In this document: positions 1 to 4,800 of the stretch, piece after piece | Layout: the number at the start of each line of letters is the position of its first letter | How positions within the stretch are numbered: the stretch's first letter is position 1 | Origin: an uncultured Ectothiorhodospiraceae bacterium | GTDB taxonomy: Bacteria > Pseudomonadota > Gammaproteobacteria > Nevskiales > Oceanococcaceae | Reading direction: 5' to 3' | NCBI GenBank assembly: GCA_937141935.1 | Contig: CAKZQS010000033.1 | Location: 1-64,000, forward strand | DNA length: 64,000 bases | Program-made: the position numbers and the translations under genes | Notes under the pieces: model-generated | Databases searched by the model: none | Seen by the model: the letters and a program-made list of their open reading frames with translations, nothing else | Told to the model about the DNA's origin: nothing

Positions 1-19
1 TCATGACAATCGCGTTCAT
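1..19 (-). CDS. Start of a downstream gene leaving the window, possibly bioD (partial)
   Basis: An ATG at 19-17 on the minus strand overlaps the TGA stop of the FHA gene (ATGA). It stays open for the six codons that remain, reading M-N-A-I-V-M. Six residues cannot identify a protein. The preceding codons look like the end of BioF, and many biotin operons continue from bioF into bioD, whose product often begins with a short hydrophobic strand before its P-loop. The opening residues fit that pattern, so bioD is a guess from context only. Confidence 0.35.
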
Positions 20-207
20 GCGGCGGCCTGCCGGTGGTGCGTCAAGGCCTCGAACAATGCGGTGATGTCGGCGTTGCTGACGTTTCCGGTGATCGAAATC
101 CGAAGCCGCGATGTCCCCTTGGGCACGGTTGGCGGACGGATGCCGCGTACGTCAAAGCCCTGTGCTTGAAGGCCCGTCGCAATATGCATGGTCGGGGCGT
201 CTTCGCC
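16..207 (-). pseudogene. BioF C-terminal fragment fused in frame to the FHA gene
   Basis: Codons 163-225 of the FHA reading frame do not look like FHA or linker sequence. They contain GIRPPTVPKGTSRLRIS followed by a helix ending ADITALFEAL. This is the hallmark C-terminal strand-turn-strand of 8-amino-7-oxononanoate synthase (BioF, a PLP enzyme of biotin synthesis). Only about 60 residues are present. The PLP lysine and the whole large domain are missing, so the piece cannot be catalytic. Base composition is similar on both sides of the junction near 207. The fragment is recognised from memory of the family, not from a search. Either a real recombination or an assembly join could explain it. 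Confidence 0.6.
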
Positions 208-693
208 GAATCCGAGCTCTGGCCCAACCTGCGGATCGGGGCGGGGCGGCGCGCTGGGGGTCGGGCCGCTCGGCGCCGCTTTGGGCGTGGCGCTCGGCCC
301 GGGCGCCTCGGCCGGCTTGTCGCCACCCATCGAGCCCAGGCCGGCCTTGGCCAAATCGGCCGGGCTCAGCACCATGGTCTTTTCGAATTCGTCGTCGCTG
401 GCCAGCACGGCCTCGTAGCGCAGCTCGTGATGGCCGATGCCGATCACGTCGCCGTTGCTCAGCGGGTACTTGGTCACGGCATTGCCGTTGACCAGGGTGC
501 CGTTGGTGCTGTTCTGGTCCTCCAGGAAGGCCTCGGTGCCGAACTTGAGCACCGCGGCGTGGCGGCCGCTGACGGCCGGATCCCCCTCCAGGATGATGTC
601 GTTGTCCGGGCGTCGCCCGATGCTGGTGCGCTCCTTGTCCAGCGCAACATCCGTGATGACCTTGCCGTTCCGACTGATGATGAGCTTAGCCAC
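16..693 (-). CDS. FHA-domain protein with a BioF-like tail
   Basis: FHA domains bind phosphothreonine peptides, and this gene lies directly downstream of a Ser/Thr kinase on the same strand, so it is probably a partner or substrate of that kinase. The 225-residue product starts with GTG, preceded by AAAGGAAAG at good spacing. Residues about 3-95 form the FHA fold, with the conserved SIGR (24-27), the SGRH phosphopeptide-binding motif (42-45) and STNGT (62-66). Residues about 125-160 are a Pro/Ala/Gly-rich linker, presumably disordered. From about residue 163 the sequence switches to a BioF-like C-terminus, listed separately. The FHA assignment is secure. Whether the natural protein really ends this way is not. 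Confidence 0.8.
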   Translation of the reverse strand: MAKLIISRNGKVITDVALDKERTSIGRRPDNDIILEGDPAVSGRHAAVLKFGTEAFLEDQNSTNGTLVNGNAVTKYPLSNGDVIGIGHHELRYEAVLASDDEFEKTMVLSPADLAKAGLGSMGGDKPAEAPGPSATPKAAPSGPTPSAPPRPDPQVGPELGFGEDAPTMHIATGLQAQGFDVRGIRPPTVPKGTSRLRISITGNVSNADITALFEALTHHRQAAA

Positions 694-821: not shown

Positions 822-3353
822 TCAGGTGGCCTGCAGGCCACGCAGCGCGGCGGCCAATTCCTGGCCGCGCTGGTAGCGCTCGGCCGGGTCCTTGCGCAGC
901 ACCTGGGCGATGATGCCGTCGATGCCGGGCGGCAGGTCGGGGCGGCGCAGCGTGGGCGGCGCCGGGTCCTGCGAGGCGATCTGGAACATCAGCGCGGCCA
1001 TGCTGTCGCCCTTGAAGGGCAGCTGGCCGGTCAGCATCTGGTACAGCGTGACCCCGAGCGAGAACAGGTCCGAACGCCCGTCGATCTTCTTGCCCGACAC
1101 CTGCTCCGGCGACATGTAGGAGGGCGTACCCAGCACCATGCCCGTCTTGGTCTTGCTGGAATCGGTCAGGCGCGCGATGCCGAAGTCGGTCAGCTTGACC
1201 TGGCGGTTGGCGGCCAGGTACATCAGGTTGTGCGGCTTGATGTCGCGGTGTACCACGCCCTGCTGGTGCGCATAGTCCAGCGCATCGGCGGCGTCGGCGA
1301 TCAGGCGCAGCACCTCCGGCACCGGCAGCAGCTTGTCGGCGGCGCAATGCGCCGACAGGTCGCCGCCCTGGATCAGCTCCATCGCGATGTAGGCCAGGTC
1401 GTGCTCGTCGCCGGCGTCGTAGATGGCGACGATGTTGGGGTGGTTCAGGCGCCCGGCCGTCTCGGCCTCGCGGAAGAAGCGCTGCTTGACCTCCTCGAGC
1501 TCCTCGGCCTCGAATTCCTGCGCCAGCGCCATCGTCTTGATGGCCACGGTGCGCTGGATCTTGGGGTCCTTGCCCAGGTACACGGTGCCCATGGCGCCCT
1601 TGCCCAGCTCGCGTTCGATTTCGTAGCGGCCCAGCGTGGGCTTGTCCAGGCCGTCGCCGGAGAGCATCAGCGTGGCGGCGCCGACGGTGCCGCCCAGCAT
1701 CACCGTGTCGTTGAGCTTCTTGGCCCGCTCGATGCGCGCGTCGATGTCGCGCCAGCCGGGCATGTGCCGCGCGGCGTATTCATAGACGCTGATGGCCTTG
1801 CCGAACCGGCGCTTGCGCTCGTAGTCCTGCGCCAGGTTGTACAGCGCGTCCATCAGCGCCTCGTCCACCGTGCAGCGGCGGAACTTGTCAAAGGCCATGT
1901 CCAGCTGGCCCTGGCTTTGCAGCGCCAGGCCCAGCAGGCGGTTGCTCTCCGCCGATTCCATCTCCGAGCTGGCGCGCAGACGCTCGGTCAGCCCCAGGCT
2001 GCGTACGGTGACGGCCAGATAACCCAGGCCGAGCATCACGGCGGGCAGGCCCAGCGGCAGCCACAGCCCGGCCTGGCTCAGCAGCAGCGGCGTGGCCAGC
2101 AGCAGCAGCACAAAGACCGCGCCGCTGAGCAGCGCGCCGACGCCGGCGCCCAGCCGCGGCAGCCCCAGCGCCAGCCACAGCGCAATCAGCAGCACCACGC
2201 CCGCCACCACCGCGCCGCTCCAGGCCGGCTGCAGGTAGTAATGCTCCTGCAGCAGGCTGGACACGGTGTGCGCCAGCACCTCGGCCGGCGGCATCGCGCT
2301 GGCCACGGGGGTGGCGAAGCGGTCGCCCACGCCGGTGGCCGAGGCGCCGATCAGCACGATCTTGCCGGCGTACTTGCTGGCCGGGATGTTGTCGACCAGC
2401 ACATCGAAGAAGGAGTCCACCGCGAAGGGGGGCTGACCACCGGCGCCGGGGCCGTAGTAGTGCGTCAGCATGCGCCCGTCGCCGGCGGTGCCGATGCTCA
2501 GGTCGGCCAGCGACAGCACGCCATCGGCCGCGTAGGCGATGTCCGCCGGCGTCAGGTTCAGCGCCTGCGCCGCCAGCATCAGCGACAGCGAGGGCAGGGC
2601 GGTGTCGTAGTGGCGCAGCAGCAGCGGCTCGCTGCGCTGGGCGCCATCCACGTCGAGCAAGGTGGTCAGGTGGCCCAGCGACACCGCCCGTTCGGCCAGG
2701 GCCGGGATCGGCGGCGTCAGCTCGATGGTCGGGATCAGCCCCTCCAGCGCCGCGGTCTCAACGCTCGTGGCGGCCAGCGGCCCGGCCAGCGGCGCGTCCG
2801 GGCGGCCCCGCGGCCAGCCGAGTTTGGCCGTGTAGGCCTGCACCACGCGCTGGCTGCGGGCATAGCTCTGGGCGAGCCGGCCGTCGGTATCCAGGGCGCT
2901 GCGGGCCTGGGCCAGCAGGCCGTCGATGTCGCTCAGCGCGCGGCGCAGCTCGGGCGCCAGGCGCGCGGGCGGCTGGTTCAGGCCGGCCCCATCGAAGCGC
3001 TCGTCGATGCGCCGCAGCCAGCCCTGGCCCGGGTCGACCTGCGCTTCGGAATACAGGATGGTGTTGCCGATCACGCGCGCCCCACTGCTGGCCAGGCGAT
3101 CGATCAGCTGCGCATGCAGCTCGCGCGGCCAGGGCCAGCGGCCGAGGTTGTCGATGCTCTGGTCGTCGATGGCGATCACCGCGACATCGGGGTGCGGGCT
3201 GCGGTCCGTCATGCCGACGCCGGCATCGTAAAGCTGGCGTTCCAATGTTTGCCCGGCGGCGCCAAACAGGCCCCAGGCGCAAATGACGAAAAGCAGGCTG
3301 AAGACGAGACCGAAGAACCAGTCACTCCCCCAGAAACCGGTTTTGTTGTTCAT
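822..3353 (-). CDS. CHASE2-domain transmembrane serine/threonine protein kinase
   Basis: An 843-residue membrane receptor kinase. A first membrane helix (about residues 12-33) leads into an extracytoplasmic CHASE2 sensor domain (about 40-375) with the typical AVIAIDDQSI and IVLIGASATGVGD strings. Two or three hydrophobic helices follow (about 385-470). After a helical stretch with TPR-like character, the Ser/Thr kinase domain occupies the last ~265 residues. It carries the GKGAMG glycine loop, AIK lysine, HRDIKPHN catalytic loop, DFG and a SPEQ segment in place of APE. I chose the ATG at 3353 over an in-frame start 31 codons upstream because AGGGGG lies about 11 nt before it and hydrophobicity begins there. 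It is divergent from radA and followed by the FHA gene. The ligand is unknown. Confidence 0.93.
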   Translation of the reverse strand: MNNKTGFWGSDWFFGLVFSLLFVICAWGLFGAAGQTLERQLYDAGVGMTDRSPHPDVAVIAIDDQSIDNLGRWPWPRELHAQLIDRLASSGARVIGNTILYSEAQVDPGQGWLRRIDERFDGAGLNQPPARLAPELRRALSDIDGLLAQARSALDTDGRLAQSYARSQRVVQAYTAKLGWPRGRPDAPLAGPLAATSVETAALEGLIPTIELTPPIPALAERAVSLGHLTTLLDVDGAQRSEPLLLRHYDTALPSLSLMLAAQALNLTPADIAYAADGVLSLADLSIGTAGDGRMLTHYYGPGAGGQPPFAVDSFFDVLVDNIPASKYAGKIVLIGASATGVGDRFATPVASAMPPAEVLAHTVSSLLQEHYYLQPAWSGAVVAGVVLLIALWLALGLPRLGAGVGALLSGAVFVLLLLATPLLLSQAGLWLPLGLPAVMLGLGYLAVTVRSLGLTERLRASSEMESAESNRLLGLALQSQGQLDMAFDKFRRCTVDEALMDALYNLAQDYERKRRFGKAISVYEYAARHMPGWRDIDARIERAKKLNDTVMLGGTVGAATLMLSGDGLDKPTLGRYEIERELGKGAMGTVYLGKDPKIQRTVAIKTMALAQEFEAEELEEVKQRFFREAETAGRLNHPNIVAIYDAGDEHDLAYIAMELIQGGDLSAHCAADKLLPVPEVLRLIADAADALDYAHQQGVVHRDIKPHNLMYLAANRQVKLTDFGIARLTDSSKTKTGMVLGTPSYMSPEQVSGKKIDGRSDLFSLGVTLYQMLTGQLPFKGDSMAALMFQIASQDPAPPTLRRPDLPPGIDGIIAQVLRKDPAERYQRGQELAAALRGLQAT

Positions 3354-3432
3354 GCTGGCGAGGCCCCCTGCGCCGCGATCTCGTGCCGGGCATGGTAAGA
3401 AAGCGCTCGCATCGAAGGCAAACCGGGACGAC

Positions 3433-4800
3433 GTGGCCAAGGACAAGCGCGCTTACGAATGCAATGACTGCGGGGCGCAGAGCCCGCGCTGGGCCGGGCA
3501 ATGCCCGCAATGCGGGGCCTGGAACAGCCTGGTCGAGGTGCGTGCGGCCGCGCCCGCCAAGGCCGCCGCCGGGGGGCGCGGCGGGCGCAGCTGGGCGGGT
3601 GAGAGCCGCATCGAAACGCTGCGCGGGCCGCAGGCCGAGCCGGCCCAGCGCTGGCCGACCGGTTTCGCCGAACTCGACCGCGTGCTGGGCGGCGGGCTGG
3701 TACCGGGCGCGGTGATATTGCTCGGCGGCGACCCCGGCATCGGCAAGTCGACGCTGCTGCTGCAGCTGCTGCTGCGCCTGGGCGAGCAGCGCGCCGTGTA
3801 TGTGACGGGCGAGGAATCGGTGGCCCAGGTGCGCTCACGCGCGCAGCGCCTGCGCGAGCCGGAGGCGGATCTGGAGCTGCTGGCCGAGACCGAGGTCGAG
3901 GCCATCCTGGGCCAGATCGAGGCCGACCCGCCGGCGGTGCTGGCCATCGACTCGGTGCAGACCCTGTACGCCCGCGAGCTGCCCTCGGCGCCGGGCAGCG
4001 TGGCCCAGCTGCGCGAGTGCGCGGCGCAGCTGGTGCGCTTTGCCAAGCAGCGCGGGGTCGCCGTGCTGCTGGTGGGCCATGTGACCAAGGAGGGCGTCAT
4101 CGCCGGCCCGCGCGTGCTCGAGCACATGGTCGACACGGTGCTGTATTTCGAATCCGACCCGGCCGGCCGGCTGCGCATGATCCGCGCGGCCAAGAACCGC
4201 TTCGGCGCGGTCAACGAGCTGGGTTTTTTCGCCATGCGCGATATCGGCCTGCAGGAGGTGCGCAACCCCTCCGCCATCTTCCTCGCCCGGCGCCCGGAGC
4301 CGGTGCCCGGCAGCGTGGTGGTCGTGGCCCGCGAGGGCACGCGGCCGCTGCTGATCGAGGTGCAGGCGCTGACCGACGGCCGTGGCGGCCGCCGCGTGGC
4401 GGTGGGCGTGGATGGCAACCGGCTGATGATGTTGCTGGCGGTCATGCACCGGCACGGCAACATCGACGCCCAGGATCAGGACGTCTTCGTCAACGTCGTC
4501 GGCGGCGTGCAGGTGCGCGAAACGGCGCTGGACCTGGCGGTGGCGCTGGCCATCCACAGCTCGCTGCGCGACCGGCCTTTGCCGCTGGAACTGGCCGTGT
4601 TCGGCGAGATCGGCCTGGCCGGCGAGATGCGCCCGGTAGCGGGCGGTGAGGAGCGCATCGCCGAGGCGCGCAAGCAGGGCTTCAGCAAGCTGATCATCCC
4701 CCAGGCCAACGCCCCCCGCGGCCGCGTGGCCGGCGCGCAGGTGGTGGCGGTGCCTTCGCTGGCCGCCGCGCTGGAGGCCGTCCGCGACCTCAGCGACTAG
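3433..4800 (+). CDS. radA: DNA repair protein RadA (Sms)
   Basis: RadA is a RecA/Lon-like ATPase that drives branch migration and helps resolve recombination intermediates. The 455-residue length matches the family. The N-terminus carries the C4 zinc ribbon (Cys10, 13, 24, 27). Next comes a RecA-like ATPase with Walker A GGDPGIGKST, the RadA-specific KNRFG motif, and a C-terminal Lon-protease-like domain that usually lacks the catalytic Ser/Lys pair. The start is GTG at 3433, because homologues begin a few residues before the first CxxC. A longer in-frame ATG at 3283 would overlap the divergent kinase gene. The last eight or so codons and the trailer are duplicated immediately downstream (see the repeat at 4768-5034). 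Confidence 0.97.
   Translation: MAKDKRAYECNDCGAQSPRWAGQCPQCGAWNSLVEVRAAAPAKAAAGGRGGRSWAGESRIETLRGPQAEPAQRWPTGFAELDRVLGGGLVPGAVILLGGDPGIGKSTLLLQLLLRLGEQRAVYVTGEESVAQVRSRAQRLREPEADLELLAETEVEAILGQIEADPPAVLAIDSVQTLYARELPSAPGSVAQLRECAAQLVRFAKQRGVAVLLVGHVTKEGVIAGPRVLEHMVDTVLYFESDPAGRLRMIRAAKNRFGAVNELGFFAMRDIGLQEVRNPSAIFLARRPEPVPGSVVVVAREGTRPLLIEVQALTDGRGGRRVAVGVDGNRLMMLLAVMHRHGNIDAQDQDVFVNVVGGVQVRETALDLAVALAIHSSLRDRPLPLELAVFGEIGLAGEMRPVAGGEERIAEARKQGFSKLIIPQANAPRGRVAGAQVVAVPSLAAALEAVRDLSD

Follow-up and report, generated by a model that had tools for sequence, protein, structure and literature searches.

The apparent fusion of an FHA domain to the tail of BioF at the edge of the stretch of DNA analysed here (the window, 64,000 nucleotides, G000:C33:1-64000) is almost certainly an artefact of sequencing or assembly. 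The locus shows what defines a chimeric contig end: a near-identical foreign segment at the end of the contig, an abrupt junction, and a native continuation of the interrupted gene elsewhere in the genome. There is no biological novelty in the fusion. In our opinion, the value of the result is that of a data-quality note only, together with the recognition that two contigs, C33 and C47, probably adjoin each other in the genome.

It should be noted that window base 1 is base 1, that is, the end, of contig C33, and that genome G000 is a draft assembly in 52 contigs. This position alone makes an oddity of 209 bases suspect from the outset.

The open reading frame at the contig end

The open reading frame is present as described in the original prediction. 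It lies on the minus strand at window positions 16-693, encodes 225 amino acids and is open throughout, with an FHA domain followed by a Pro/Ala-rich linker and then by the C-terminus of BioF. Residues 23-87 match the FHA domain (Pfam PF00498, E 1.7e-18), and the score of 67.2 bits, against a gathering score of 20.7, identifies the product as an FHA-domain protein. Residues 162-217 match the C-terminus of BioF (TIGR00858 positions 309-364 of 365, E 2.8e-14), and the underlying DNA is identical to the 3′ end of bioF from Thalassococcus halodurans; profile and DNA both establish homology to the BioF C-terminus. The claim of an FHA gene that ends as BioF does was accordingly borne out, and the absence of any BioF match in the tail, named beforehand as an outcome that would overturn it, did not materialise. 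The product as a whole is not a BioF equivalog: it reaches 52.6 bits against a TIGR00858 cut-off of 426.45, and the short span of profile positions given above falls far short of a full-length BioF with its PLP-binding region.

An ATG overlapping the stop codon of this frame coincides with the bioD start of T. halodurans, in agreement with the earlier suggestion that a new frame at the stop codon marks a bioD start. The short bioD-like frame that it opens soon meets the end of the sequence.

Origin of the terminal segment

The origin of the BioF tail was sought by scanning genomes, one from each species, and the tail was found in T. halodurans DSM 26915 (NZ_FNUZ01000007.1), a marine alphaproteobacterium unrelated to the organism of the window. 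Window positions 3-209 (minus strand), which comprise the 3′ end of bioF and the first codons of bioD, are identical to the bioF/bioD junction of this strain at 207 of 207 positions; the two bases at the contig end (positions 1-2) lie outside the identical stretch. The matching sequence occurs once in the T. halodurans genome. The same region is 94.7% identical in a Thalassococcus MAG and about 75% identical in Ruegeria. T. halodurans has this tail as the last part of a full-length BioF encoded within bioB-bioF-bioD-bioA (genes recognised from their translations), and the completeness of BioF in this operon marks T. halodurans as the natural owner of the tail. In the window, by contrast, the tail stands alone, joined to an FHA frame.

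Identity to T. halodurans is lost sharply between positions 209 and 210, at the end of the Pro/Ala-rich linker of the FHA protein, and is at background level beyond; the junction had been placed near base 207, which is close. The accompanying claim, that base composition does not change visibly at the junction, failed on measurement. The G+C content is 62.2% in positions 1-209 and 68.6% in positions 210-693, compared with 69.9% in the whole window and 61.3% at the T. halodurans locus, so that the foreign piece fits T. halodurans better than it fits the window. A G+C content this low is seen in just 3.5% of stretches of 209 bases. A third foreign piece at positions 211-234 was considered and rejected: searches of G000 outside the site, of the T. 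halodurans genome and of viral contigs gave no match to these bases, which agrees with their being native linker sequence and is not proof of it.

A real in-frame fusion might in principle have arisen by recent horizontal transfer of a Thalassococcus bio fragment (the end of bioF, and bioD onwards) into the FHA gene, and we consider this very unlikely. In its favour, the assembled sequence is in frame without a stop, and the interruption of the FHA gene falls precisely at the junction. However, the identity of all 207 bases is to the genome of one strain, and the foreign stretch, only about 207 bases long, stops at the contig end. No other near-identical piece of the 10-kb T. halodurans bio locus was found in G000; the remaining matches of G000 to this locus are 67-81% identical, several of them on the organism's own bio operon on contig C43. 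Moreover, the second half of the FHA gene sits with its normal neighbours at another contig end (see below), and the rest of the inserted DNA would need to be on a flank or in an unassembled gap. It is because neither flank has the rest of bioD, and because the 207 bases are perfectly identical, that we regard a natural insertion as so improbable. The narrower proposition, namely that Thalassococcus DNA entered the FHA gene naturally and very recently, splitting it and giving rise to an expressed FHA-BioF-tail protein, is slightly less probable still.

The second half of the FHA gene

Beyond the junction, window positions 210-693 (minus strand) form the native 5′ part of the FHA gene, encoding the N-terminal FHA domain and the linker, as indicated by domain and homologue searches. 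This part is about 50% identical to homologues from related genomes, of which 28 were collected (L016-L042 among the labels), 27 complete and 1 running off a contig end within the linker. In these two-domain proteins, the N-terminal FHA domain is followed by a variable Pro/Ala linker, and all 27 complete members then run on into a conserved second FHA-like domain. This domain is missing from the window frame, which has the foreign sequence in its place.

A BioF tail is found in none of the 28 homologues. The sharing of this C-terminus by related FHA proteins, which the original prediction had named as a result that would speak against it, was therefore not seen, and a conserved FHA-BioF architecture is ruled out among the relatives searched. 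A natural family of FHA proteins with a BioF-like C-terminal domain, which nothing apart from the window frame supports, is extremely improbable given these proteins, the complete ones ending in a different conserved domain, and given that G000 itself possesses the second domain of its relatives.

That domain was located by building a profile of it from the relatives and searching G000, where it lies at C47:41425-41682 (E 9.9e-37). Contig C47 is 41739 bases long, and the match ends 57 bases short of its end; the frame, a 106-residue open end that begins PAAPGAPNTPPAGAKRLPVGKVTV, extends without a stop through a Pro/Ala linker and past the contig end. On C47, the second domain adjoins alr-like and dnaB-like genes (L164, G000:C47:38500-41739), and in the relative L016 the FHA gene and a dnaB-like gene converge. 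The location of the second half at the C47 end, with a dnaB neighbour as in L016, indicates that the FHA gene is broken in its linker, with one part at the end of C33 and the other at the end of C47. The two contigs are most likely chromosomal neighbours, a placement that follows from the split gene and the gene order of the relatives, not from overlapping sequence; a direct overlap between the two ends was looked for, and nothing beyond a trivial chance 10-mer is shared.

These observations indicate how the chimeric contig end almost certainly formed. The native protein, like those of the relatives, has an FHA domain joined by a G+C-rich Pro/Ala linker to a second FHA-like domain. The assembly broke in the linker, so that C33 ends with the N-terminal part and C47 with the C-terminal part, and a stray piece of T. 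halodurans DNA of about 207 bases, approximately one read or a short insert, was attached to the C33 end. The stray piece may, for example, have been a chimeric or cross-contaminating read, and it may have entered by way of a chimeric library molecule, through carry-over or through index misassignment. With a chance of about 1 in 3, it happened to stay in frame, producing the apparent FHA-BioF fusion and the bioD start.

In the relative L029 (G016:C395:12-416), a contig end likewise truncates the homologous FHA gene within the Pro/Ala-rich linker, and breakage in the same linker suggests that this region is hard to assemble. A strong hairpin at the linker was considered as the cause of the break and rejected, the sequence being no more stable than its shuffles (z 0.00).

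Native biotin genes, gene neighbourhood and data quality

The earlier proposal to look for an intact bioF elsewhere in the genome proved well founded. A full-length native BioF is encoded on contig C43 between bioB and bioD, with bioB-bioF-bioD intact, and its tail is only 40% identical to that of the window frame. A second large match to TIGR00858, on contig C40, is Kbl-like, and the gene after it resembles that of a threonine dehydrogenase (recognised from translations). The intact genes on C43, together with the Kbl-like character of the C40 match, mean that the organism has had none of its biotin operons cut. That its own biotin operon was rearranged into the kinase/FHA locus, although the BioF C-terminus is genuine by profile, is thus scarcely credible: the intact C43 genes and the 40% identity rule out a source within the genome, and the DNA of the fragment is that of an alphaproteobacterium. 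Of the two alternatives originally offered, the cut biotin operon falls with this result, the tail being foreign, and the misjoin is essentially right, with a foreign 207-base piece on the end of C33 and the true continuation on C47.

Cross-contamination and chimeric contigs are a known class of artefact in draft genomes. They are the subject of PMC8862208 and PMC10246020, for example. The present case resembles known contaminated draft assemblies in that foreign sequence lies inside an assembly; unlike them, it involves a native contig with only about 207 foreign bases at its end. Contig-level screens may miss an end piece of this size. These few bases suffice to yield a plausible in-frame fusion, and annotation could spread the FHA-BioF combination into databases.

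Upstream of the FHA gene, the window encodes a CHASE2-TPR-Ser/Thr protein kinase (positions 822-3446, minus strand; domain search), a native neighbour; in the relative L016, too, a kinase gene comes before that of the FHA protein. In the window, the FHA gene comes directly after the kinase gene, with about 130 bases between them (positions 694-821) and no phosphatase gene; in L016, the two are separated by a gene (L016 671-1504) that, judging by its translation, encodes a PP2C-like phosphatase.
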